From the IMG/VR virus record IMGVR_UViG_3300037459_000194, positions 1 through 41,335 of that record: a stretch of DNA of 41,335 nt; one strand, given 5' to 3'. A program made the position numbers and the translations under genes. This DNA is from a virus. Under the pieces are notes generated by a model that saw only the letters and a program-made list of their open reading frames with translations, made no database searches and was not told the origin of the DNA. Positions 7,673 through 41,335 of the stretch are shown piece by piece (position 1 is the stretch's first letter; each line of letters opens with the position of its first letter).

Positions 7673-7885
7673 TCACTTTGCCACCGCCCTCCGGGCTCGT
7701 AGGAGCGCCTTCCGCACGTGGGCCAGCTCCACCAGAATCGCGTCGAGCCGTCCACGTGCACCGGCCACGAGCACCGCGCACTCGCGGTCCTGCACGGCAG
7801 CGCAGGCGTCGGCGATCCTGAGAAGGGCCTTGCGCGCGTCACGAACGGCGCGGATGCCCGGGTCCGTGAATCTCGTGCGTTCCAT
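7673..7885 (-). CDS. Small helical hypothetical protein
   Basis: A 70-residue Arg/Ala-rich protein, almost entirely helical (RAVRDARKALLRIADACAAV, ILVELAHVRKALLRARRAVAK), with heptad-like spacing that suggests a coiled coil. It is the first gene of the leftward early operon, upstream of the initiator with a 20-base gap. No good ribosome site precedes the ATG, so it may be leaderless or weakly translated. A role as a small regulator near the divergent promoter region is possible but unproven. Confidence 0.55.
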   Translation of the reverse strand: MERTRFTDPGIRAVRDARKALLRIADACAAVQDRECAVLVAGARGRLDAILVELAHVRKALLRARRAVAK

Positions 7886-7922
7886 AGCGGCGGGAGCGTA
7901 GCTCTTGACGCTCGCGGGCTCG

Positions 7923-7945
7923 ACGCAAAAAACTGGCTTTTGCGT
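7923..7945. promoter_or_regulatory. Operator-like palindrome in the divergent intergenic region
   Basis: ACGCAAAA and TTTTGCGT form perfect 8-base arms with a 7-base centre, in the 120-bp gap (7886-8005) between the two oppositely transcribed early operons. A TTGACG at 7905-7910 could be a -35 element for the rightward operon, but its -10 is poor. A second imperfect hairpin (GGCCCGAG...CTCGGCC, about 7959-7980) lies in the rightward leader just before the AGGAGGAGGG ribosome site. The palindrome most likely binds a regulator of both operons; a terminator is less likely at this place. Confidence 0.5.
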
Positions 7946-8005
7946 GGATTACTCGTGAGGCCCGAGCGAAAGTCTCGGCCGTCAGACCACCCAGGAGGAG
8001 GGCGA

Positions 8006-9184
8006 ATGAAGATCCTGCGACTGAGCATCCGCAACGTGAAGGGCATCGAGGCCATCGAGATCGACGCGCAGGGCAACCACGTCCTGCTGTCCGGTGCCAA
8101 CGCCGTCGGCAAGTCGAGCGTGCTCGACGCGATCGTGTTCGCGCTCACCGGCAAGGGCGTCGAGGAGCCGCTCAAGGCCGGGGCGCGCAAGGGCCACGCC
8201 GAGGTCGACATCGGCGAGTGGCGCGTGCGTCGCGAGGTCAAGAAGGGCAGCAAGCCAGTGCTGTCCGTCTTCTACGGTGACAAGAAGGGCGCCAAGAAGG
8301 CATCGCCGGCGACGTTCCTCAAGGACCTGGTGGGCAGTGGTCTCGCGTTCGACCCGCTGGCGTTCGACAAGCTCAACGGGCGTGAGCAACGCGCCGCGCT
8401 CGTGCACGCCGCCGGCCTCGACCTGGTGGAGCTCGAGCAAGCGCGTGCCGACAAATACGAGGAGCGAACCGCGGTCAACCGCGAAGTCAAGCGACTACAG
8501 GGCGTCGTCGACACTTTCGAAGCGTTCGACCTAGAAGGAGTCTCCGTCGAAGAGCTAAGCGCCAAGGACCTCGTCGCGAAGCTGTCTTCGTTGGGAGCCG
8601 CGAACAACGCGCGCAAGACCCTCCAGGCCGAGCTCGAGGACATCGCGATACGTAAGGCTCAGATTGCCGAGAGACTGCAGGACATCGGGGACATCGACGA
8701 GCAGGAAATCCTCGACTTGGAGGACCAGGTCGAGAACGTTGAGGTGACCAATGCCAAGGTGCGCCAAAAGAGGGCGATGGATCAGGCGACCGAGGACCTC
8801 ATCGCAGCGGACGACAACTCCACGGCGTTGACCGAGGTGATTGAGAAGCTCGACGAGGAGAAGGTGGAACAGATCGCGGCCGCGGAGTTCGGCATCGACG
8901 GCCTCCAGGTCGACGACGAGGGCCTGCGCGTCAACGGCATCCCATACGCCGACCTGAACACCACCGCGCGTCTCGGCATCGGTTTCCAGATCGCGATCGC
9001 GCAGGGCGGCCAGCCGCGTGTCGTGTTGATCGACGAGGCCAGCGTGCTCGACCGCGCGCACCTCGAGGAGTTGCTCAAGGCGGCAACAGCGCTTGACGTG
9101 CAGGTGTGGGTGGCGCGCGTGTCCGACGAAGAGGGGTTGAAGTTCGAGATCCTGGAGGGAGAAGCCGAAGCACATGCCGACTGA
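8006..9184 (+). CDS. SMC/RecF-like ATPase
   Basis: A 392-residue AAA ATPase of the RecF/SbcC/SMC type. It starts MKILRLSIRNVKGIE, as SbcC-like proteins do. Walker A is GANAVGKSS (residues 30-38) and Walker B is VVLIDEAS (from about 339), with a TARLGIGFQIAIA segment before it in the signature-loop position. The central ~150 residues are Glu/Lys-rich coiled coil, shorter than in SbcC. These proteins handle DNA ends and single-stranded gaps in recombination. AGGAGGAGGG precedes the ATG. It opens the rightward operon, which also encodes a nuclease, a candidate annealing protein and a resolvase, so it is probably part of a recombination-dependent replication set. Confidence 0.85.
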   Translation: MKILRLSIRNVKGIEAIEIDAQGNHVLLSGANAVGKSSVLDAIVFALTGKGVEEPLKAGARKGHAEVDIGEWRVRREVKKGSKPVLSVFYGDKKGAKKASPATFLKDLVGSGLAFDPLAFDKLNGREQRAALVHAAGLDLVELEQARADKYEERTAVNREVKRLQGVVDTFEAFDLEGVSVEELSAKDLVAKLSSLGAANNARKTLQAELEDIAIRKAQIAERLQDIGDIDEQEILDLEDQVENVEVTNAKVRQKRAMDQATEDLIAADDNSTALTEVIEKLDEEKVEQIAAAEFGIDGLQVDDEGLRVNGIPYADLNTTARLGIGFQIAIAQGGQPRVVLIDEASVLDRAHLEELLKAATALDVQVWVARVSDEEGLKFEILEGEAEAHAD

Positions 9185-9422
9185 AACCGAAAGCAGCATC
9201 TTCCCACCTGAGCAACTTCGAAAGCTGCGAGACCTGACGAACTACACCGAACGCGCGTTGCGCGACTTGGAGGCGCTCAAGAGGTGGGGGCAGGACTACC
9301 GAAAGCTGGTTCAGGGCATGATCGAGATCCTCGAACAGACCCAGCGCATGTTCGACGAAGCCGAAGCCGCGTGCCCGTTCTGCGGGAAGAAGGGAGAGGG
9401 CGATGCCGCTACGACCGACTGA
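9174..9422 (+). CDS. Small coiled-coil protein with C-terminal CxxC
   Basis: An 82-residue protein overlapping the end of the ATPase gene by 11 bases. Residues 10-62 are a continuous charged helix (LRKLRDLTNYTERALRDLEA...), followed by ACPFCGKK, a half zinc-ribbon or Rad50-like zinc-hook motif. Sitting directly after an SMC-like ATPase with a short coil, it could be a partner that supplies a CxxC dimer interface. That is inference only. Confidence 0.7.
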   Translation: MPTETESSIFPPEQLRKLRDLTNYTERALRDLEALKRWGQDYRKLVQGMIEILEQTQRMFDEAEAACPFCGKKGEGDAATTD

Positions 9423-9660
9423 AACAGGCCCCAAGGTTGAGGCCATCCAGAAGCACCACGCCAAGATGCCGACGGTGCGACCCGGCGAACACCTCTGGAT
9501 CGTCGCCGGGGTGTGGCGTGTCGCGAACCCGACGGCGGAGCAGTTCATGCTCGACACCGAGAACCTCCTCTCGCTCGAAGGCCCTGGGTGCTACGTCTGC
9601 GAGGAGGACTACTCGCCCGACCTGGCGATGCGGCGGTGCCCCGGGGAGCCGAGCCGATGA
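9403..9660 (+). CDS. Hypothetical 85-aa protein
   Basis: It starts inside the previous gene, preceded by GGGAGAGGG. It contains MPTVRPGEHLWIVAGVWRV, likely beta strands, and a CYVCEEDYSPDLAMRRC cluster that may bind zinc. No family is recognised. The 20-base overlap upstream and ATGA overlap downstream show translational coupling in the recombination operon. Confidence 0.65.
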   Translation: MPLRPTETGPKVEAIQKHHAKMPTVRPGEHLWIVAGVWRVANPTAEQFMLDTENLLSLEGPGCYVCEEDYSPDLAMRRCPGEPSR

Positions 9661-9770
9661 TCATCCGCGACCCGTGGGGCCGACGCCAGCAGATCGAAGA
9701 CGCCTTGCGCGTGCTCGGCATCGTGGCGCTTCTGCTCGTCTGCCTGTTCGCGCCGGAGTCCTGCTCGTGA
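9657..9770 (+). CDS. Small membrane protein (37 aa)
   Basis: A 37-residue protein (MIIRDPWGRRQQIEDALR then VLGIVALLLVCLFAPESCS), with a short basic start and a single hydrophobic segment at the C-terminus. The ATG overlaps the previous stop as ATGA and the stop overlaps the next GTG as GTGA, so it is held in a tight gene chain. The role is unknown; it could be a membrane tether or a small toxin-like protein. Confidence 0.6.
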   Translation: MIIRDPWGRRQQIEDALRVLGIVALLLVCLFAPESCS

Positions 9771-10972
9771 CCGCACCGGCAGGCTCCTACACGATCGCGC
9801 AGCCGCTGCTGGAGTTGGCGATCCCGATCGACGACGTGCACCTCGACCCGGCGAACGCGCGCCGGCACAACAAGCGCAGCCAGGAGGCGGTGAAGGCCAG
9901 CCTGGCGTCAAACGGTCAGCTGAAGCCGATCGTGGTGCAGGCCGACGGGATGATCGTGCGCGCCGGCAACGGCACGGTCGAGGCCGCGCGGTCGCTCGGG
10001 TGGACGCACATCGCCGCCGTGGTCGTGGACCGCTCGACGGCCGACATGGTGGCGTTCGCGATCCAGGACAACCGCAGCGCCGAGCTGTCGGCGTGGGACG
10101 ACACGACGCTCACGCGCCTCCTGGACGCGCTCAAGGAGGACCATGACGTGCGCGCCCTGGGCTTCACGTCCGAGGAGCTTCGCCGGCTCGCGGGTGGTGA
10201 CGCATTGGACGGTGGGACGTGGGCTGAGCGACCTGTGATCGATCTGCCAGATACGGCGACCGCTACCGCTGGAGAGGTTTGGCAACTCGGTCAACACCGA
10301 CTCCTTTGTGGAGACTCGAAAGATTCAGCGAGCTACGCCCACGTCCCAGCGCAGGTTGCGATGCTGGTGACCGACCCACCTTACGGCGTCGAATACAGGG
10401 GCGTTGTCGGGCAAAGGGATCGGATGCACGATGACGGCACTAGCGGGCTGCGCGACTTGCTGCGCGCATCGCTCACGCTGGCGGTTGGCCGGGTTGCGCT
10501 CGGTGGCCCGTGCTACATCTTCGCCCCTCCAGGCCCACAGTTCCTCGACTTTGCGACTGTGCTCACCGAGCTGCAGGTGTGGCGTCAGACGTTGGCCTGG
10601 GTCAAGGATACCTTTGTTGTGGGACGCAGCGACTACCACTACCGGCACGAGGCGATCTTCTATGGGTGGCGGCCAGGTGCGAAGCACGTTGCGCCGCCGA
10701 CCCGGAAACTAGACACGGTGTGGGAAGCCGATCGCCAGCGGTCGAGCCCGAACCACCCGACGATGAAGCCGGTGCAGTTATTCGCTCGAGCCATTGTCAA
10801 CTCTTCATCGGAGGGCGACGCAGTTCTGGATCCGTTTGCCGGATCGGGCACCGCGATAATCGCGGCCGAAAAGCTCGACCGCACCTGCTACTCGATCGAG
10901 ATCGATCCGCGCTACGTCGACGTCGCGGTGTCACGGTGGGAGTCACTGACCGGAAAGAAGGCCGACCGATGA
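9767..10972 (+). CDS. ParB-like domain fused to DNA methyltransferase
   Basis: A 401-residue fusion. Residues about 10-140 are a ParB/Srx-type domain (DDVHLDPANARRHNKRSQEAV, NGQLKPIVVQADG, RAGNGTVEAARSLGW, AIQDNRSAELS). The rest is an amino-methyltransferase: motif IV DPPYGVE at 203, an NHPTMKP segment near 325, and the SAM-binding motif DPFAGSGTA at 355, an order typical of N6-adenine or N4-cytosine enzymes. This fused pair is common in phages and mobile elements. The likely job is to methylate phage DNA against host restriction or to mark replication state. The GTG start overlaps the previous stop as GTGA, and the stop overlaps the nuclease start as ATGA. Confidence 0.9.
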   Translation: MTAPAGSYTIAQPLLELAIPIDDVHLDPANARRHNKRSQEAVKASLASNGQLKPIVVQADGMIVRAGNGTVEAARSLGWTHIAAVVVDRSTADMVAFAIQDNRSAELSAWDDTTLTRLLDALKEDHDVRALGFTSEELRRLAGGDALDGGTWAERPVIDLPDTATATAGEVWQLGQHRLLCGDSKDSASYAHVPAQVAMLVTDPPYGVEYRGVVGQRDRMHDDGTSGLRDLLRASLTLAVGRVALGGPCYIFAPPGPQFLDFATVLTELQVWRQTLAWVKDTFVVGRSDYHYRHEAIFYGWRPGAKHVAPPTRKLDTVWEADRQRSSPNHPTMKPVQLFARAIVNSSSEGDAVLDPFAGSGTAIIAAEKLDRTCYSIEIDPRYVDVAVSRWESLTGKKADR

Positions 10973-11853
10973 GCACCGCCGAGGAGCTACAGATCCCGCA
11001 CGAGGATCTCCCGCGACGCGCGGCCGAGGCCGTCGCGATCATGACGTCGTCGAAGGTGCGCGACTGGTTGACGTGCCAATGGAAGTTCTTCGCGCGCTAC
11101 ATCCTCGGCCTGCAGGGGGAGCCGACGCCGTTCATCGCGTTCGGCAACGCCAGCGACTCGACGGCCGAGGCGGTGCTCGACGCGAAGAAGGGATCGCACA
11201 CCACCTGGGACGCTACCGAATGCCTCGACTACTGGCGCGAGGCGTGGCGTGCAGAGGCGGACGACGTAGACGACTGGATCGGTGAAGACCCGGAGCGGTT
11301 GGAGGCGATCGGCCTCGACGGGATTGAGAACTGGCGCGACGTCGTCGCCGCGAAGATCCAGCCGGTCGAAACGCATCGCTGGTGGCGCCTGAACATGCGC
11401 GGCGACAGCGGATCACGGTGGGCAATCACCGGCGAGGTGGACTCGATCGCGAAGCTCAACACGGAGCTGCACCGCCCGGCGGTCATCGGCGACCTGAAGA
11501 CGAGCGGCCGACCGTTCAACCCCGGCGACATGTGGAAGCTCCTGCAGGCGTCGCTCTACACCGCGGCCGCCGAATACACCACGGCGCTCAAGGGTGTCGA
11601 CCCGAACCGCTTCCACGTCCACATCATCGTGCGGAGCAAGAAGCAACCGCTAACGCAGTTCCTCCAGCGGCCGGTGTCACCCGAGCAGCGCAGCGGTGCG
11701 CTGTCGATCGTCACGCGCGCACGGACGCAGATCATGGCGGCGTTCGAGACCGGGACCTTTCTACCGAACCAAGGCGCGATGACTTGTTCGCGCCGTTACT
11801 GCCCGCACTGGCGCGCGTGCCAGCGCGAGAACAACATCCGAATCGCAGACTGA
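10969..11853 (+). CDS. Cas4/RecB-like Fe-S exonuclease (PD-(D/E)XK)
   Basis: A 294-residue nuclease. The active site is visible: GEVDS (Asp158), then VIGDLKTSG (Asp175, Lys177), then a Q193-containing QASLYTAA helix, as in RecB/Cas4-type PD-(D/E)XK enzymes. A cysteine near the N-terminus (LTCQWKF, Cys36) and three at the C-terminus (C273, C278, C284 in TCSRRYCPHWRAC) form the usual 4Fe-4S cluster set. Phage enzymes of this kind resect double-strand ends to single strands for annealing. It stands just upstream of a candidate annealing protein, a normal exonuclease/recombinase pairing. The ATG overlaps the methyltransferase stop. Confidence 0.85.
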   Translation: MSTAEELQIPHEDLPRRAAEAVAIMTSSKVRDWLTCQWKFFARYILGLQGEPTPFIAFGNASDSTAEAVLDAKKGSHTTWDATECLDYWREAWRAEADDVDDWIGEDPERLEAIGLDGIENWRDVVAAKIQPVETHRWWRLNMRGDSGSRWAITGEVDSIAKLNTELHRPAVIGDLKTSGRPFNPGDMWKLLQASLYTAAAEYTTALKGVDPNRFHVHIIVRSKKQPLTQFLQRPVSPEQRSGALSIVTRARTQIMAAFETGTFLPNQGAMTCSRRYCPHWRACQRENNIRIAD

Positions 11854-18696: not shown

Positions 18697-19155
18697 CTAC
18701 TCGTACCAGGCGATCCAGCAGGTGCCGTTCGTCGTCGTCCCAGGCCCACCGTCGGGCATGCGAACGGCGATGCGGTCGCCGGTGTTGATGACGAAGTCCT
18801 CCGGTCGGGGGAACCATTCCGCGTGCGACGTCTGCAGGTGCAGCTCCTCCTCGCGGAAGACGTCGGACGATGCCGGCTCCACCGTCCACGCCGCCGCGTC
18901 GTCGAGTGCCACCCCGTCGATCGCCGTCGAGATGTGTTGCGACATCTTGACCTCGGTGGCGGACGCGCCGCCGGTGCCCGCGTCCGTCTGCTTCACCAGG
19001 TGGAAGCGAACCGGCAGCTGCAAGTTGTCGATGCCCTTTGCTGACATTCCCCAACCCGCCACCATGATCGGCTTGTTGACCGCCCGCACCTGCAGCAGGG
19101 TTTCGATCGCCGATGTGAGATTGCGCTCGGGCCGCGTGACGGTCATTAGCATCAT
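18697..19155 (-). CDS. Hypothetical tail-region protein (152 aa)
   Basis: A 152-residue mixed protein. It has an N-terminal helix (AIETLLQVRAVNKPIMVAGWG), then beta strands and acidic turns, with a Trp-rich C-terminus (GTCWIAWYE). It is preceded by AGGGAGAAC. It lies between the long repeat protein and fibre-like genes. No recognised motif; a virion role is inferred from the operon. Confidence 0.6.
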   Translation of the reverse strand: MMLMTVTRPERNLTSAIETLLQVRAVNKPIMVAGWGMSAKGIDNLQLPVRFHLVKQTDAGTGGASATEVKMSQHISTAIDGVALDDAAAWTVEPASSDVFREEELHLQTSHAEWFPRPEDFVINTGDRIAVRMPDGGPGTTTNGTCWIAWYE

Positions 19156-19168
19156 TTGCGTGTTCTCC

Positions 19169-20929
19169 CTAACCTGGTCCCTGAACCGTCAGCCGCTCGG
19201 TGTAGTCGTGCCGGCGCCGCTCATAATGGACCCGTGGATGCACGCCGGCAATCTGCCGGTGTGGCAAGAAGGTCGTGGTCGCGGCGATGACGGGCTCGAA
19301 GCCGCCCATCTGCCAACCGAGACTCGGCCGCACTTTCGCCTGCAGTCGCTCGGGGTGAACGACCAGCGTGAACCCGAACAGGTCCGGGTCGAGCGGCGGG
19401 ATCACGATGATTTGATCGCCGTCGACGACCCACCCGAGGCGCGGCCGCAATCTCGCCGTCAACCGCTCCGGGTAGACGGCGAGATTGAAGCCGAAGAGGT
19501 CAGGGTCGATCGGTGGAACCGCCAGAACCTCGAAGCCGTCGACCTGCCAACCGACGCTCGGGCGTGTCCGCGGTCGCAACCGATCGGGATACGTCGACAA
19601 CCCGAAGCCGAACAGCGTCGGGTCGAACGGCGGAGCCGCGACCGGCTCGAACCCGGCAACCTGCCAGCCCAGAGACGGCCGCCGCTTTGGCGTCGGTCGC
19701 TGCGGTGGGTTCGCGAGGTCGAAGCCGAACAGGTCGCCGGCGAACTCCTCGAAGCCGTCGACGTGCCAGCCCGCAACCTGCCGCCGCCCGCGCAAGGCCT
19801 CTGGGTAGACGGCGAGCCCAAAGCCGAACAGGGTCGGATCAAACGGTGCTGGCGCCGCCAGCTGGAACCCGTCGACTTGCCAGCCGACTCGTGGCTGCGT
19901 CGGCCGCCGAAGGGACTCTGGATAGACCGTGAACGACTGCGGCGGCCCTGGATCCTCGATGTCCGAGACGATCCAACCGGCGCGCGTCGCCGGTGGGTTC
20001 GTCCGATCCTGGTAGGTCGCCAGCGTGAAACCGAACAATGTCGGATCGAACGGTGGCGGCGGGGTCGGCTCGAATCCATCGATCTGCCAACCGAGCGACG
20101 TTCGCGGCGGCCGACGCAGGGCGTCTGGGTAGACCGTGAACGCAGGCGGTGCCGGGTCGAACCCTCCGACCTGCCAACCGAGACGCGGCCGCTCCGCGGC
20201 CCTCAGACGTTCTGGGTGGGTCGTCAGCGTGAATCCGAACAGCGTCGGGTCGAACGGCGGAGGCGCCGGCGGTTGGAAACCTCCAACCTGCCAACCCTGG
20301 TAGGACCGCACCGCACCAGTCAGGCGGTCCGGGTAGTTGGCAAGCTCGAAGCCGAACTCGTCGAACGGTGACGCCAGCGAGATGGTCGCGGTCGCGTGCG
20401 TCGCCGGGTAGCTGTCGAACACAACCGGCGGAGTGTCGAACTCGACGAGCCGGAACTCGATCGAGTCAGTGTCGTTCAGGTCCGCTTCGCGGAGTTCGAT
20501 GCAGAACTCGACGGAGGCGAAGTCCTGCGCCGAGTAGGAGACGGCCCCAATGATGCCGTCGACTTGCTCCATCCCCTTGTTCGTCCCGATGAACGCGCCG
20601 GTCCCAGCGTACGTGACGCCGTGCTCCGTGGTGTCGTCTCCGTCCGTGAAGTTGCCGCTGGCAACCGAACGGGCAACGATGCTGGTCGCGTTTACGGGGA
20701 GCCAGGTGCCGCCGTTGATGCTGTACTGCAGACCAACGTTGAGGTTGTTCTTGTTAGAGACCTCTCCGTGCAAAGAGAAACGCGGTCGAACGGGGACATC
20801 GAGCCCCGCCGAAACGAACTCGTGCGCGACATCCTCAAGTTCGTGCCACGTAGCGCCGGTGGTCTCTTCCTCACCGCCGTCGTCGAGGCGCCATCGCCAA
20901 TGGTCTTCATGGAGTGTCGGATCGTCCAT
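19169..20929 (-). CDS. Tail-region protein with ten LFGF-YP-GWQVxGF repeats
   Basis: A 586-residue protein. Residues 1-170 look like a beta-sandwich domain (GLQYSINGGTW, FCIELREADLNDTDSIEFRLVEF). Residues about 187-558 consist of ten imperfect repeats of roughly 30-39 residues. The full form is P-F-D-P-(T/D)-LFGF-x-L-x-x-YP-(E/D)-RL...RP-x-LGWQV-x-GF followed by a Pro-rich linker. Two repeats (3 and 5) lack the LFGF half. The C-terminus is basic. I know of no family with this repeat. One more copy ends the head-tail protein at 31653-32108. The ATG overlaps the upstream stop as TAATG. It may be a flexible spacer, a fibre shaft, or an array of docking motifs. Confidence 0.8.
   Translation of the reverse strand: MDDPTLHEDHWRWRLDDGGEEETTGATWHELEDVAHEFVSAGLDVPVRPRFSLHGEVSNKNNLNVGLQYSINGGTWLPVNATSIVARSVASGNFTDGDDTTEHGVTYAGTGAFIGTNKGMEQVDGIIGAVSYSAQDFASVEFCIELREADLNDTDSIEFRLVEFDTPPVVFDSYPATHATATISLASPFDEFGFELANYPDRLTGAVRSYQGWQVGGFQPPAPPPFDPTLFGFTLTTHPERLRAAERPRLGWQVGGFDPAPPAFTVYPDALRRPPRTSLGWQIDGFEPTPPPPFDPTLFGFTLATYQDRTNPPATRAGWIVSDIEDPGPPQSFTVYPESLRRPTQPRVGWQVDGFQLAAPAPFDPTLFGFGLAVYPEALRGRRQVAGWHVDGFEEFAGDLFGFDLANPPQRPTPKRRPSLGWQVAGFEPVAAPPFDPTLFGFGLSTYPDRLRPRTRPSVGWQVDGFEVLAVPPIDPDLFGFNLAVYPERLTARLRPRLGWVVDGDQIIVIPPLDPDLFGFTLVVHPERLQAKVRPSLGWQMGGFEPVIAATTTFLPHRQIAGVHPRVHYERRRHDYTERLTVQGPG
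19256..20371 (-). repeat. Ten tandem coding repeats (~38 aa each)
   Basis: Segments encoding the ten modules. At DNA level copies share words such as AAGCCGAACAG and GGGTCGAACGG (plus strand), so the array expanded by duplication rather than by convergence of protein sequence. Unit length varies because the linker and the LFGF half are sometimes lost. Such arrays are prone to copy-number change by recombination. Confidence 0.8.
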
Positions 20930-21676: not shown

Positions 21677-22126
21677 TCACTCGGTCCAACGGGCCTGGAA
21701 TGCGAAGTCCGTCGTCTGCGTCGGGTGCAGCGTGTTGAACCCGAGGCCCGCGTTGGCCGTGGCCGGGATCACGATCTCGTCGCCGACGTTGGCGACCCAA
21801 CGGTAGGCGCCGCGGAAGTGGAGCGGGATGCTAATCTGGTCCTCGCTGGCGGTGTAACTCGGCTCCGCCGAGTGGTTGACGCCGGCGATGCACCGCGCCG
21901 CGCCATCGGCGAGGTCGCCCAGGCTCGGCGTCAGCGGCGTGCTGGTTCCGGCGGTCGTCACGCGCTCGACCTTGTAGAGGCTCGTGAAGTCGGCCGGCGT
22001 GCCGGTGTTGCCGAACGTGACCTCGTGAAGGAATCCGCGAGCGGTGGCAATACCCAGGACGGTCAGAGCGGTGGCCCGCGCCGTGTCCAAGGTCTGAGTT
22101 CCTGCTGCTCCATAACCCTTAGTCAT
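21677..22126 (-). CDS. Probable minor tail protein (149 aa)
   Basis: A 149-residue beta-rich protein with Thr/Ala/Gly-rich strands (TARATALTVLGIATARGFL, ISIPLHFRGAYRWVANVGDEIVIPAT). The repeated short strands and single-domain length resemble small tail-tip or decoration beta-sandwiches. AAGGAGAGAG precedes the ATG. Assignment rests on composition and position. Confidence 0.6.
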   Translation of the reverse strand: MTKGYGAAGTQTLDTARATALTVLGIATARGFLHEVTFGNTGTPADFTSLYKVERVTTAGTSTPLTPSLGDLADGAARCIAGVNHSAEPSYTASEDQISIPLHFRGAYRWVANVGDEIVIPATANAGLGFNTLHPTQTTDFAFQARWTE

Positions 22127-22700: not shown

Positions 22701-25670
22701 CTAGTTGTCCTCCTCGAGCCGGTTCATCAGGTCTTCCTGCTGGCTCGCCATCCGCTCCAGCCCGGCGACCGTGTCGACGAACGACGCCGGCTGCCGGCCG
22801 AGGCGCAGCTGCCGGTCGACCAGGCCGACAGACGGCACCACCGAATAACGGACCTCCTCGACGTGGAGGATCAACGGCCCGCCCCAGGGCTTGCTGTAGG
22901 CCTGGGAGCCGACGGCGATGGTGTCACCGATGCGGAAGCCGCGCCGGTTGTTCGTCGTGATCGGCGACGGGTCCGCGAGGATGTTCGTCAGCGACGCGGT
23001 GTATTGCTTCTGCACCGGCCCGGTGCTTGTCTCGAACGTCCACACGGCGCGCGGATTGACCGCCGGCCCTGGGTGGTGGGCCTCGTTGAAGCGGCACATC
23101 CGCAGCAGGCCGACGCCCTCGTTACGTGCCAGTGGTTTCGCGGCCGTCCGTGTCGCGAACGCCGCGATGCTGTTGCTGTCCTCGAGACCACGCAGGCCCG
23201 CCGGCTTGGTGTTGATCATGGCCCAGTTGTCGAGTTCGCCGATCCAGCCTTCGTCGTCGGCCGCCGCGTCGTTGAACCAGCGCCAGTTGAAGCTGCCTGT
23301 CTGCAGCGTCTGCCGGAACCCTGCCGAGGTGTTCTTGGCCGCCGGCCCGTCGTAGAAAGCCCAGTCCCCGGTTGCGTCCCGGTAGATGATGATCTCTACG
23401 ATCTGGTCCGCCGGCGCTGCTGACGGCACGTTGATGCCGGTGACGATAGGACCGCGCAGCGAGCCGCCGCTGTCCTCGAACCACCACTGCAGGTTCCCGC
23501 TGTCCCTGTCCCAGACGAGGTTGCCCCAACCCTTGCGGAAGTTGCCGGCACCGCCGCGAGGCCTGCCGAAGATGTGGGCGAACGTTCCGCCGGCGCCCAC
23601 GTGCGCGTCGGTGAACCGCAGGCGAATCTTGAGCAGCCAACTAGTGTTGATGTTCTGCTCTGTGGTAGTGGGGGCGAGCGTCACGTTGTCGCCGGCGTCG
23701 CCGTCGCCGCGCAACGCCGTGCCGACCATGTCGCCGTAGCGGCGCATGACCGCGTTTCCCATCTGGTAGTCCTCGATCGACGTCGAGCCGCGCGCCTTCA
23801 GCTGTCGCCCGATCTTCTCAACCGGGTTCACGATCGCGACGAACGGCAGGAACGGCGTTAGCACTTCCGAGAAAGATTGGGTACCGTCCAGGGGTGACAG
23901 CACGCGCAGCTTCGCGGTGAAGACCGGCGCGCAGGTCCGCTTGCACATCGCCTGCGCCACCTTCGCCGCGAATCCGTCGTCGTGGTAGATCGAATCCTTT
24001 TTCGTGTCGGCGCGCGTCCCATACATTTGCACCGACTTATCGCATCGCGCCACACCACGGACAACGCCGGTGCTGTTCTCCTCGGTGTCTTCGTCGTAGC
24101 TTTCGCCGATCACGGTGACGGCGTTCTCAATCTTGTCGAACGCGACCTTTGGCTCCCACCCCTGCGCGTTGTCCGTGTTGAGGGTGAGCAGCGGCAGCTG
24201 CCCGGTCAGGAGGTCGATGGTGTAGTGATCGATCTGCTGCTGGATGTAGAGCGTGCCGGTGGCGTCGACGCCCCACACGAAGCCCTCGGGCAGCACGCGC
24301 AGCAGGCGGTCGATCGCGTTCCGCAACGATGTGTGCTTGAAGTCGTAATCGACGAGCTGCTCCAGCTGGTGCCCCACGCCTACGATGTTCCGTGCCACGA
24401 TCGGCGAGTCGACCGTCGGGCTCTTCACGGCGTATTTGTCGATCAGCAGCACCAGCGCGTCGCGCAGCTTGATCCGTTCGCCCACCTCCGCGTCGATCTC
24501 GATCTTGCTGAGTTGCCCCCAATGCCCGAGCATCCGCAGGCGCACCGTCTTCTCCCCCTTCTTGAAGGCGGACGACGAAATGCGGCCGCGCCAGATTGCC
24601 TCGGGGACATTGTTCGTTCCGATCCGCAGCCATTGGCCGCCGTGCCTCTGGCGGATCACGACGTCGCCGCCGTGCCAGTCGTTCGCCGACCAGGCCTCGG
24701 CAGGCGGTTCGTAGAACGACCGCAGCGCTGGCGGCAGGGTGATCGTCGTATCGGTGTTGATCCAGTCCTGGAGCTGCAGCACGGCGAGCGCGCTGGCGCA
24801 CCCACCGCGGCGCTTGAATGAGAAGTTTAGGGTGGTGATCTCCTTCGAGAAATACCACTGCACCTTCGGCGCCGGGTCCGTGGAGAACCGCTGCTGCGTC
24901 AACAACTCGAGACGCGGTCCGCCGAACAGACGGGCGACGTCGAAGAACTCGGCGTAGTGGTTGAAGCCGCTCGTGACCCACCACTCGGAAGCGGTGGCGC
25001 CGTGCACGTGCGCGACCGGGACCGCCGGAGTATTGATCCCGCAGATGCCCGGCAACGCCGACAGGGCCGAGACGCGATAACCTGTGGTCGCCGGATCGAT
25101 CCAGGCGTCGACCGCGATGCCGTTGACACGCAGCCCGAGGTTGACCTTGGAGCTCGCCACGTCGAAGCCGTAGGAAAGGGACATCACATCGCCCTGGCGC
25201 ACGGTCTGGTTCGGGGCGGAGGACAGGATGACGAACACGCCGGCGGCGAACACCGCCAGCCCGACGGTGGGCGTGCCGGCGAGGTAGGTCGCGAAGCCCA
25301 GGTAGCAGTTGCCGGGGTTGCCGACGCCGCCGCTGTGGATCGCGACCGCCGGCCCGATCACCGTGCCGCTGCCAACCTCGCGGTTCGTGCGGTTGCGGAA
25401 CCGCAGGTGCACGGTGTGAGCCGTCTCCAGGCCGTCGGCGGTCACGAAGCCGAGCTGCGCGAACGGCACGCGCGCCTCGGCCGTGCCGGCGCCGCCGCCG
25501 TTGTTGTTGAGGAAGTTCATCAGATCCCAGGCGGGGTTGGCCTGGGAGACGGCCGCCTTGCCGAACGTCGCGCCGGCGGCGGTGCGGTGCACCCACCCGT
25601 CGGCGGTCGAGAACGTGCCGCCACGTTCGCACAGCAGCGCCTTGCGGGGAATCGCGTAGCGGGTGCCCAT
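22701..25670 (-). CDS. Large tail-tip / baseplate protein with LamG-like domain
   Basis: A 989-residue protein in the position of the tail-associated hub (after the distal tail protein). The N-terminal ~250 residues are beta-rich (FRNRTNREVGSGTV, GLAVFAAGVFVILS). The middle (about 300-620) resembles the tail-hub fold seen in central tip proteins (RLRMLGHWGQLSKIEIDAEVGERIKL-like strands and helices, given here only in short). Residues about 670-830 look like a concanavalin/LamG sandwich (GTFAHIFGRPRGG, WDRDSGNLQWWFEDSGG, WAFYDGPA), which binds sugars in other phages. It likely anchors fibres and contacts the host surface. Confidence 0.7.
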   Translation of the reverse strand: MGTRYAIPRKALLCERGGTFSTADGWVHRTAAGATFGKAAVSQANPAWDLMNFLNNNGGGAGTAEARVPFAQLGFVTADGLETAHTVHLRFRNRTNREVGSGTVIGPAVAIHSGGVGNPGNCYLGFATYLAGTPTVGLAVFAAGVFVILSSAPNQTVRQGDVMSLSYGFDVASSKVNLGLRVNGIAVDAWIDPATTGYRVSALSALPGICGINTPAVPVAHVHGATASEWWVTSGFNHYAEFFDVARLFGGPRLELLTQQRFSTDPAPKVQWYFSKEITTLNFSFKRRGGCASALAVLQLQDWINTDTTITLPPALRSFYEPPAEAWSANDWHGGDVVIRQRHGGQWLRIGTNNVPEAIWRGRISSSAFKKGEKTVRLRMLGHWGQLSKIEIDAEVGERIKLRDALVLLIDKYAVKSPTVDSPIVARNIVGVGHQLEQLVDYDFKHTSLRNAIDRLLRVLPEGFVWGVDATGTLYIQQQIDHYTIDLLTGQLPLLTLNTDNAQGWEPKVAFDKIENAVTVIGESYDEDTEENSTGVVRGVARCDKSVQMYGTRADTKKDSIYHDDGFAAKVAQAMCKRTCAPVFTAKLRVLSPLDGTQSFSEVLTPFLPFVAIVNPVEKIGRQLKARGSTSIEDYQMGNAVMRRYGDMVGTALRGDGDAGDNVTLAPTTTEQNINTSWLLKIRLRFTDAHVGAGGTFAHIFGRPRGGAGNFRKGWGNLVWDRDSGNLQWWFEDSGGSLRGPIVTGINVPSAAPADQIVEIIIYRDATGDWAFYDGPAAKNTSAGFRQTLQTGSFNWRWFNDAAADDEGWIGELDNWAMINTKPAGLRGLEDSNSIAAFATRTAAKPLARNEGVGLLRMCRFNEAHHPGPAVNPRAVWTFETSTGPVQKQYTASLTNILADPSPITTNNRRGFRIGDTIAVGSQAYSKPWGGPLILHVEEVRYSVVPSVGLVDRQLRLGRQPASFVDTVAGLERMASQQEDLMNRLEEDN

Positions 25671-31116: not shown

Positions 31117-31653
31117 TCACCCGAGCTTCGTGATTGCGCGATCGACCTCTTGGCGCAAGATCTTGCCGAAGTCCTTCGCGGTTGCGTCAAGCGCAGGCTC
31201 GAGCCACGGCTTCGCCTTCACGCCCTCCTTGGCGATCGACTGGCCGAGCAGGTAGCGGGCCGACGAGAACTCCTCGGCGCCGACAGATAGGCGCCGCTTG
31301 ACGAACAGCGACAGCGCGGCCGGCGGCGGAGCGCGACCCGGCTTGCGGCCCTTCTCGACCGCGAGACCGTAGCTCGCCGGGTCTCCGTGCAGACTAGACT
31401 TCGGCGTCAGGGCCGGGCCGATGAGCACGCTCATCTTCGATTCGTTCACCTTGAACTCGACGGTGTTGATCAGCGTCGGCCCGACGATGCTCGGGAACTC
31501 GCCGGCGCGAAGGTTGAGCTTCGCACGCTTCACGACCAACGCGCCGACGCGACGCAGCGTGATGAGGCCCGCCTTGCGGAAGGCCTTCGGCGCCTTCCGG
31601 CGGAGTTCATCCGCGGCCCGGAAGTCGCTCTTGACGGTGGCGCGTAGCGGCAT
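31117..31653 (-). CDS. HK97 gp10-like tail completion protein
   Basis: A 178-residue basic protein: MPLRATVKSDFRAADELRRK, helices with KAGLITLRRVGALVVKRAK, then GLAVEKGRKPGRAPP and a C-terminal helix pair (LLGQSIAKEGVKAKPWLEPA). The pattern of a YGLAVEKG-like strand followed by RxG and PW-L-PAL is typical of HK97 gp10-family proteins at the head-tail interface. The ATG overlaps the upstream stop as TGATG. Confidence 0.75.
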   Translation of the reverse strand: MPLRATVKSDFRAADELRRKAPKAFRKAGLITLRRVGALVVKRAKLNLRAGEFPSIVGPTLINTVEFKVNESKMSVLIGPALTPKSSLHGDPASYGLAVEKGRKPGRAPPPAALSLFVKRRLSVGAEEFSSARYLLGQSIAKEGVKAKPWLEPALDATAKDFGKILRQEVDRAITKLG

Positions 31654-32108
31654 CAGGACACCGCCCCCAACTGCCCCGCCTGCCATCCTGGTCGCAGCCG
31701 TCGGACGGGTTCGCCCCGCCCTGGGTAGACCGCTAGGTCGAACCCGAACAGGGACGGGTCGAACACCACGCCCTCCATCTCGCGGCCGACGCACATCACC
31801 GCCTCGCCCTCGGGGGAGTTCATCAGCGCCGGCTTGACCAGCGCCGTGATCTCGAACACGCGCCCGTCCTCGAGCCACGTAACTCGATCTCCGATCCTGA
31901 CGTTCGTTCCGGGCAGGAACTCGATGCCGTAGGTGGCCTGCGAGCCGGCGCCCATGGGGCCGCCGAGCGCGTCGTCGAGCTCGTGGTCGAAGCGACACGG
32001 CTGCGTCCCACCGACAGGCGTCGTGCCGAGAGCCACCTCCTGGTTGACGATGTCCTGGTTGGGTCGCACGATCGTGGCCGAGTGCACGAGCAGGAAGGCT
32101 CGCAGCAT
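31653..32108 (-). CDS. Head-tail stopper-like protein ending in an LFGF repeat
   Basis: A 151-residue protein in the connector position. It has an N-terminal strand set (FLLVHSATIVRPNQD), a loop, and a beta-barrel-like part (GTNVRIGDRVTWLEDGRVFEI), as in head-tail joining/stopper proteins. The last 36 residues are different: FDPSLFGFDLAVYP...RRLRPGWQAGQL is a full copy of the module repeated ten times in the protein at 19169-20929. Fusion of that module to a connector suggests it docks to a shared partner. The start overlaps the previous stop. Confidence 0.7.
   Translation of the reverse strand: MLRAFLLVHSATIVRPNQDIVNQEVALGTTPVGGTQPCRFDHELDDALGGPMGAGSQATYGIEFLPGTNVRIGDRVTWLEDGRVFEITALVKPALMNSPEGEAVMCVGREMEGVVFDPSLFGFDLAVYPGRGEPVRRLRPGWQAGQLGAVS
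31656..31763 (-). repeat. Eleventh copy of the LFGF-YP-GW module
   Basis: Encodes the C-terminal 36 residues of the connector protein. It is similar to the array at 19256-20371 in both protein (FDPSLFGFDLAVYP, RPGWQ) and DNA (plus strand CCGAACAGGGACGGGTCGAA against CGAACAGCGTCGGGTCGAAC), so it is a duplicated module about 11 kb away. Confidence 0.85.
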
Positions 32109-32734
32109 CAGGCACCGACCCCGCGCGTGATTCGCTGGATCCGATACGAGGCGAGCAGCTTCTTCGTGTCCTTAGGCAACGGGTCGGCCTTCAACGTGAC
32201 CGTGCCGCCAGAGCCAACGCTGAACGTGGCGAGGCCGGCGGCCCGTCGCCGGTTGAAGATCACCACCGCCCACTCGAGCGCCGCGAGCTTGACCTCGATC
32301 GGGATCGTCGCGAAGCCGCCGGTGTATGTGATCTTGACGTTCTGCACGCCACGGGGGAACACCGTGGAGTCCACGAACAGACGGGCAGCCACGGTCGACT
32401 GCGGCAGCAGCTGCAGGCGACGGCCGTTGCGGATCACATACTTCGACGCGGCGACCTCGGTCGCAGCCAGGAAAGCGCGGTCGGGGTCGACGTTGAGGAT
32501 CGGCGCCGGCGTCGTCGGCTCGATCGGTGGGTGCTTGACCGAGACGCAGGTGGTGCCGGTGCCGTCGTGAAACTCGATGTGTGCCGCCTGCGCGAAGGTG
32601 CGTTGGCAGAACCTGTCCACCAGGGCCGTAACCGAGGGCGCGAGGATCTGGGCGATCCAGCCATCCCAGATCGTCACCGCGGCAGGTGTGCCGTGGTGGC
32701 CCTTGAACTCTTCCTTTGTGAACAGGTCCGCCAT
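32108..32734 (-). CDS. Head-tail adaptor protein
   Basis: A 208-residue protein after the 194-aa gene. The N-terminal helices (DGWIAQILAPSVTALVDRFC, FQCRTF-like) and following beta-hairpin with QLLPQSTVAARLFVDST, then a helical end (IEVKLAALEWAVVIFNRRR), match the gp6-like/Gp15-type adaptor that sits under the portal. It ends at the ATG of the stopper-like gene as TGATG. Assignment is by pattern and order. Confidence 0.65.
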   Translation of the reverse strand: MADLFTKEEFKGHHGTPAAVTIWDGWIAQILAPSVTALVDRFCQRTFAQAAHIEFHDGTGTTCVSVKHPPIEPTTPAPILNVDPDRAFLAATEVAASKYVIRNGRRLQLLPQSTVAARLFVDSTVFPRGVQNVKITYTGGFATIPIEVKLAALEWAVVIFNRRRAAGLATFSVGSGGTVTLKADPLPKDTKKLLASYRIQRITRGVGA

Positions 32735-41155: not shown

Positions 41156-41328
41156 GACAGCCACACCGGCAGGCAGAAGTAGAGGATGACGATCGCCGCA
41201 GCGAAGTAGCCCTGCTCCCAGAACGACGCGCCTCGCAGCGCGGTCGTCCACAGGAACGCCCGGTACCGGAGGACCGGCAGGAGCGATCGCAGGAGCGGCA
41301 CATGGCTGTCTACCCGCTTCTTCTTCAT
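41152..41328 (-). CDS. Small membrane protein at the circle junction (58 aa)
   Basis: A 58-residue protein: basic start (MKKKRVDSHVPLLRSLLPVL), a middle helix, then a hydrophobic segment near the C-terminus (YFAAAIVILYFCLPVWL). The ATG overlaps, across the circle junction, the stop of the gene at 97-366 (as ATGA); the stop overlaps the YkgJ-like GTG. The start is repeated in the left terminal repeat. The single membrane segment and small size fit a holin-like protein, but this is not established. Confidence 0.65.
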   Translation of the reverse strand: MKKKRVDSHVPLLRSLLPVLRYRAFLWTTALRGASFWEQGYFAAAIVILYFCLPVWLS

Positions 41329-41335
41329 TCGATCC
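41229..41335. repeat. Terminal direct repeat, right copy
   Basis: Identical to bases 1-107. See the left copy. Joining the two gives continuous minus-strand genes across the junction, which shows that the molecule is circular or permuted. Confidence 0.95.

Follow-up and report, generated by a model that had tools for sequence, protein, structure and literature searches.

A repeat module shared by the head-to-tail stopper and a ten-unit tail-cluster protein of an uncultured phage: a plausible docking peptide

Why should a protein of the phage neck end in a short peptide that recurs, ten times over, in a protein encoded among the tail and adhesion genes? The question arises from the genome of an uncultured phage, analyzed here over a window that comprises the whole virus record (41,335 bases), for which the first-pass annotation had proposed a docking code shared by both proteins. 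Judging by the comparisons described below, such a code is plausible. The module would act as a short docking peptide through which the neck ring and the ten-unit protein share a partner or pair with each other, a reading to which we give a probability of about 0.4.

The two ends of the record (1-107 and 41229-41335) repeat each other over about 107 bases, a pattern as for a circular or end-redundant genome, and a second record of the same phage carries an imperfect extra repeat at the same end region. The structural genes follow one another on the minus strand in the order terminase, portal, protease, capsid, adaptor, stopper, gp10-like protein, terminator, tail tube, chaperone, tape measure, Dit, tail tip, small proteins and array protein, where names without a database match were assigned from gene order. 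On the plus strand, positions 7718-11853 hold ORFs with ParB-like and N6/N4 DNA methylase domains and a PD-(D/E)XK nuclease, adjoined by an AAA_23 (RecN/SMC-like) ORF. The features relevant to the module are collected in Table 1.

Table 1. Coordinates of the neck and array features in the window, with the basis for each assignment
Feature	Position	Strand	Basis or remark
Head-tail adaptor (ring above stopper)	32108..32734	-	PHROG 442 head-tail adaptor, E 3.8e-13; homologue in L099
Stopper core, residues 1-115, SPP1 gp16 / lambda gpFII type	31764..32108	-	Gene order; predicted model; remote relatives P1312, L052, L056, L076
C-terminal module of stopper, residues 116-151 (FDPSLFGF...RPGWQ + AGQLGAVS)	31656..31763	-	Array-only profile, i-E 1.1e-10; absent from other stoppers found; low pLDDT
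gp10-like neck/tail completion protein, directly after stopper	31117..31653	-	Position; L099 homologue at equivalent place, E about 1e-20
Tail tip gene	22701-25670	-	Upstream of array gene, same strand
Array protein, 586 aa: acidic N-terminal region 1-186, ten modules 187-542, short basic C-terminus 543-586	19169..20929	-	Profile, unit mapping
N-terminal region of array protein, pI 4.2	20372..20929	-	No recognised family
Array unit 1	20273..20386	-	
Array unit 2	20156..20281	-	
Array unit 3, short (YPDALRRP...GWQIDGF only)	20069..20143	-	
Array unit 4	19955..20077	-	
Array unit 5, short	19862..19936	-	
Array unit 6	19748..19870	-	
Array unit 7	19646..19747	-	
Array unit 8	19529..19654	-	
Array unit 9	19412..19537	-	
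Array unit 10	19295..19420	-	

The 151-residue ORF at 31653-32108 on the minus strand was present as annotated. Its gene sits between the adaptor gene and the tail completion and terminator genes, an order repeated in the related contigs L099 and L103, and its stop codon is overlapped by the ATG of the following gene. A predicted model of the protein was obtained at moderate confidence (mean pLDDT 61.6), and its best structural matches were neck stoppers, namely 2kz4 (Z 10.6) and SPP1 gp16 (7z4w; Z 9.7 over 104 residues), with further matches to those of Pam3, Douge, XM1, GTA and lambda, covering residues 1-116. In addition, matches to the protein at E values of about 1e-4 came from the 'head-tail adaptor' of P1312 and from the viral contigs L052, L056 and L076. 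With moderate confidence, the product is a head-to-tail stopper with a predicted β-barrel stopper fold; the earlier term 'connector' was right by position, and the fold model and gene order make it more exactly the stopper.

The structural alignment with solved stoppers stops at residue ~116, which is where the module starts, and the module itself has low pLDDT in the model. Since the stopper fold ends at this point, the C-terminal tail is appended to it. The core resembles SPP1 gp16 and lambda gpFII in gene-order position and predicted fold, whereas these proteins end at the core end, without a module. At 31764-31776, exactly at the module start, a Shine-Dalgarno-like GGAGGG stands just before two in-frame GTG codons (residues 114-115), from which an internal start would yield a free module peptide; such a site was found at 8 of 340 internal start codons of structural genes, and three of these lie in the stopper gene. 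A search for RNA structure at the stopper tail gave none above chance.

The final 36 residues of the stopper are FDPSLFGFDLAVYPGRGEPVRRLRPGWQAGQLGAVS. A profile built from the ten array units, with the connector left out, recovered this tail at an i-E of 1.1e-10 (37 bits) and gave no other match in the six-frame translation of the genome (next E about 1). In line with this result, a BLAST search of the full record with the tail as query reached eight places in the array (E 2e-7 to 7e-4, 48-57% identity, 27-31 residues). The presence of the same module on the connector protein and, in ten copies, on the tail-cluster protein was thereby borne out. As to its description as a 36-residue eleventh copy, the repeat copy is real, but the common block spans only ~30 residues (FDP...GWQ) with the pattern FDPxLFGFxLAVYP...R..GWQ, and the last eight stopper residues, AGQLGAVS, do not match the array linker VDGFEP.

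Two of the ten array units are short. These, units 3 and 5, lack the FDPTLFGF half (19304-20371), so that the module consists of two separable halves. The array gene belongs to a same-strand run after the tail tip gene, and the gene just before it in the tail/adhesion cluster has a stop codon that overlaps the array start. For the N-terminal region, nothing was found in Pfam, PHROGs or NCBIfam, nor in 392 Planctomycetota genomes, and a structure model of the array protein from the single sequence was uninformative (pLDDT 30), with no fold or groove readable. PHROG 37663, of unknown function, touches the short array unit YPDALRRP...GWQIDG at 20060-20122 with an E of 0.01-0.03; this match is too weak to use, and perhaps hints at a wider YPD-type motif in phages.

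When the stopper, array protein, tail tip and terminase were used as queries against viral contigs, the sole match in each case was to a further record of this phage, IMGVR_UViG_3300043214_000019, and the module carriers found are one phage in these two records. INPHARED phages and plasmids gave no noteworthy module, array or stopper match; in 25 records, complete phages included, the module occurred in this phage alone; the 392 Planctomycetota genomes gave one 19-residue module match, due to chance; and a regular-expression search of the fetched loci for tandem YPD-type motif proteins returned nothing convincing. Among other candidates, a weak module match (G402) was rejected by eye because it sits in an unrelated radical/phage Gp37-like protein. 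Two further matches of a module alignment, to an unrelated long protein of the tail region with a GWQVDGF stretch (L012, viral contigs) and to a sulfatase-like protein (L013, genome contigs), were attributed to chance.

To find relatives, the terminase was aligned with those of P1312 and Wollypog, which led to 80 loci including L020, and alignments with L020 added led to L099. L099 and L020 (IMGVR_UViG_3300030620_000030 and 3300032259_000111) group with this phage at about 42% terminase identity (41% for L099), and no closer named relative of the group was found. L099 keeps the order adaptor, stopper, gp10, terminator, tail tube, tape measure, Dit and tip; its terminase lies on the strand opposite its other structural genes, which is not so in this phage. 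The L099 stopper, recognised by gene order and length at 23% identity, has no tail, its last residues being ...ATLKRTTL, and the stoppers of P1312 and of three P1312-like contigs likewise end without the module. In five of the five stopper relatives found, the protein thus ends where the core ends, which argues that the module was added in the lineage of this phage. No stopper tail was met in a relative without the array; among close relatives this comparison covers L099, the only one whose contig extends as far as the stopper, and that contig stops at the tail-tip gene, before the array position. Both the stopper tail and the array are absent from distant complete phages such as P1312.

The copies had also been described as similar in DNA. 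Nucleotide identity between the stopper tail and the array units is indeed 40-57% (average 50%), but it is uninformative: identical residues share their codon in 53% of cases, the same proportion as within the array (53%), against 56% expected from codon usage. Since the agreement is near this expectation, synonymous sites are saturated and the DNA similarity mirrors that of the protein, which implies that the copies are old; DNA similarity as a mark of recent copying was rejected on this comparison. The stopper tail keeps 13 of 17 conserved module positions compared to 7 of 23 variable ones (Fisher p 0.01), a pattern in which we see signs that purifying selection has acted on the peptide in both proteins. 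Old copies and a conserved peptide together speak against a recent copying accident and strengthen the case for function. It is accordingly quite improbable that the stopper tail is a functionless recombination by-product of the array. The tail does lie at the very end of its gene, where additions harm least, and its third-codon GC (0.78, from few codons) is nearer to the array (0.81) than to the stopper core (0.90); however, an old copy would hardly have retained its conserved positions by accident, and a tail of no use would be expected to decay or disappear from a compact operon. If selection kept the module in both proteins, its role is probably to dock a common partner, or a common surface, at the neck and in the tail region.

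The view that no described phage system resembles this one proved too strong, since the sharing of modules between neck and tail is already known. In 936 lactococcal phages, carbohydrate-binding modules are present on the neck passage structure, the major tail protein and Dit (PMC6669499). Related modules are spread there over neck and tail proteins, as would hold for our phage if the array protein, placed by gene position, is a virion protein. In contrast, those modules are larger folded domains, carried by the tail tube protein, by Dit and by a neck-fibre protein distinct from these, and two of them were shown to bind the host, whereas the putative binding unit here is a peptide of 30-36 residues on the stopper itself plus ten copies on one other protein. 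In TP901-1, a related N-terminal domain occurs in the baseplate and the neck fibres (PMC4493119, PMC6669499), so that one domain type (BppU-like N-terminal) serves both sites in a way similar to the sharing seen here. The common part in TP901-1 is a beta-sandwich ring-forming domain and not a repeat peptide, and a stopper copy is not described; a BppU-like N-terminal domain gave no profile match in the array protein, for which the single-sequence model was poor (pLDDT 30). Ig-like domains, according to a review (PMC9022992, on Fraser et al. 2006), sit on several virion proteins, often C-terminally, and resemble the module as one accessory type on different structural proteins; they differ in being Ig folds, often added by frameshift, on protein classes that do not include the stopper. 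What is new here is the short repeat peptide on the stopper itself, for which no earlier description was found in the literature consulted.

These systems bear on an alternative in which the module serves as an accessory unit for binding the host surface, borne six times at the neck and ten times on a fibre-like protein, with its target outside the virion. Such a role would fit the distribution over neck and tail in 936 phages, together with the host binding demonstrated for two modules (PMC6669499), the occurrence of Ig-like domains on five classes of virion protein (PMC9022992), the location of the array gene among those after the tail-tip gene, and the conserved Trp, Tyr, Phe and Arg residues of the module; host-surface binding would, moreover, leave the same sequence pattern as docking. 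However, the module is only 30-36 residues long, proline-rich and without cysteine, and no match of the 25-42 residue unit to any binding-module, Ig-like or CBM family was found in Pfam, PHROGs or NCBIfam. Pfam choline-binding-type GW repeats were not among the matches listed for the repeat region at E up to 10, where most weak matches go unlisted, and the GWQ-x-DG likeness is one seen by eye. Further, the modules described elsewhere are larger folded domains, while the lone stopper unit would have to fold by itself. We consider host binding unlikely, albeit with some weight. A single stopper copy that has neither the array linker nor a neighbor to pack on is more readily understood as a linear binding motif than as a fold formed only in tandem. 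Because one proline-rich unit of ~30 residues without a linker resembles a linear docking motif more than a folded glycan-binding domain, we infer that a virion target is to be favored over the host surface.

Where the tail would stand is suggested by other stoppers. The C-terminal loop of the lambda stopper reaches the tail terminator gpU (PMC10721106), and in Staphylococcus phage 812 the N- and C-termini of the stopper are in contact with decoration proteins of the stopper, and these seem to hold the neck whiskers (PMC12886913). These contacts would place the tail at the neck surface or at the stopper/terminator junction and, for a hexameric stopper, give six copies of it. Phage 812 thus resembles our proposal in that the stopper termini are contacts for neck decoration, and differs from it in that the available text describes no repeat common to a tail-region protein. 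The lambda contact also lends itself to an explanation in which the tail merely aids head-tail joining by clamping the tail terminator, its likeness to the array reflecting reuse of a convenient sticky peptide; this would leave the retention of the specific module sequence in both proteins unexplained, and we regard it as very improbable.

In the docking reading, the stopper would form a ring of six subunits with C-termini that come out at the junction with the tail terminator, so that six module copies would stand as a ring at the neck. These copies would bind the partner of the array protein, or pair with the array units, and the ten-unit protein would be a multivalent scaffold; the neck and the tail or fibre region would thereby bear the same whisker- or collar-like decoration. 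Candidate partners, by position only, are the small proteins adjoining the array (21677-22126 and 18697-19155). The full form of a docking code across the virion, with the six copies of the stopper ring and the ten-unit scaffold loading one partner at the neck and along the tail or fibre, appears somewhat unlikely. Homotypic pairing, in which the stopper ring would recruit the array protein directly, making the latter a neck whisker despite the tail-tip location of its gene, seems improbable. One specificity would then account for both copies, and the TP901-1 neck-fibre gene, like the array gene, can lie downstream of the tail-tip genes (PMC4493119); yet ten self-pairing units per chain would also be expected to pair mutually or to aggregate. 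A shared binding specificity would be the economical reading of both copies, be it for a virion protein, for the host surface or for the module itself.

In this phage, one module is common to the gene block for head completion and the block of adhesion genes. How neck whiskers and collars are attached to phages is poorly understood. If the docking reading is true, a stopper and a multivalent tail-cluster protein that bear the same peptide would amount to an attachment code that is simple and portable, in principle akin to a scaffold whose docking sites are repeated, and would give experiments on the recruitment of neck appendages a point of entry.
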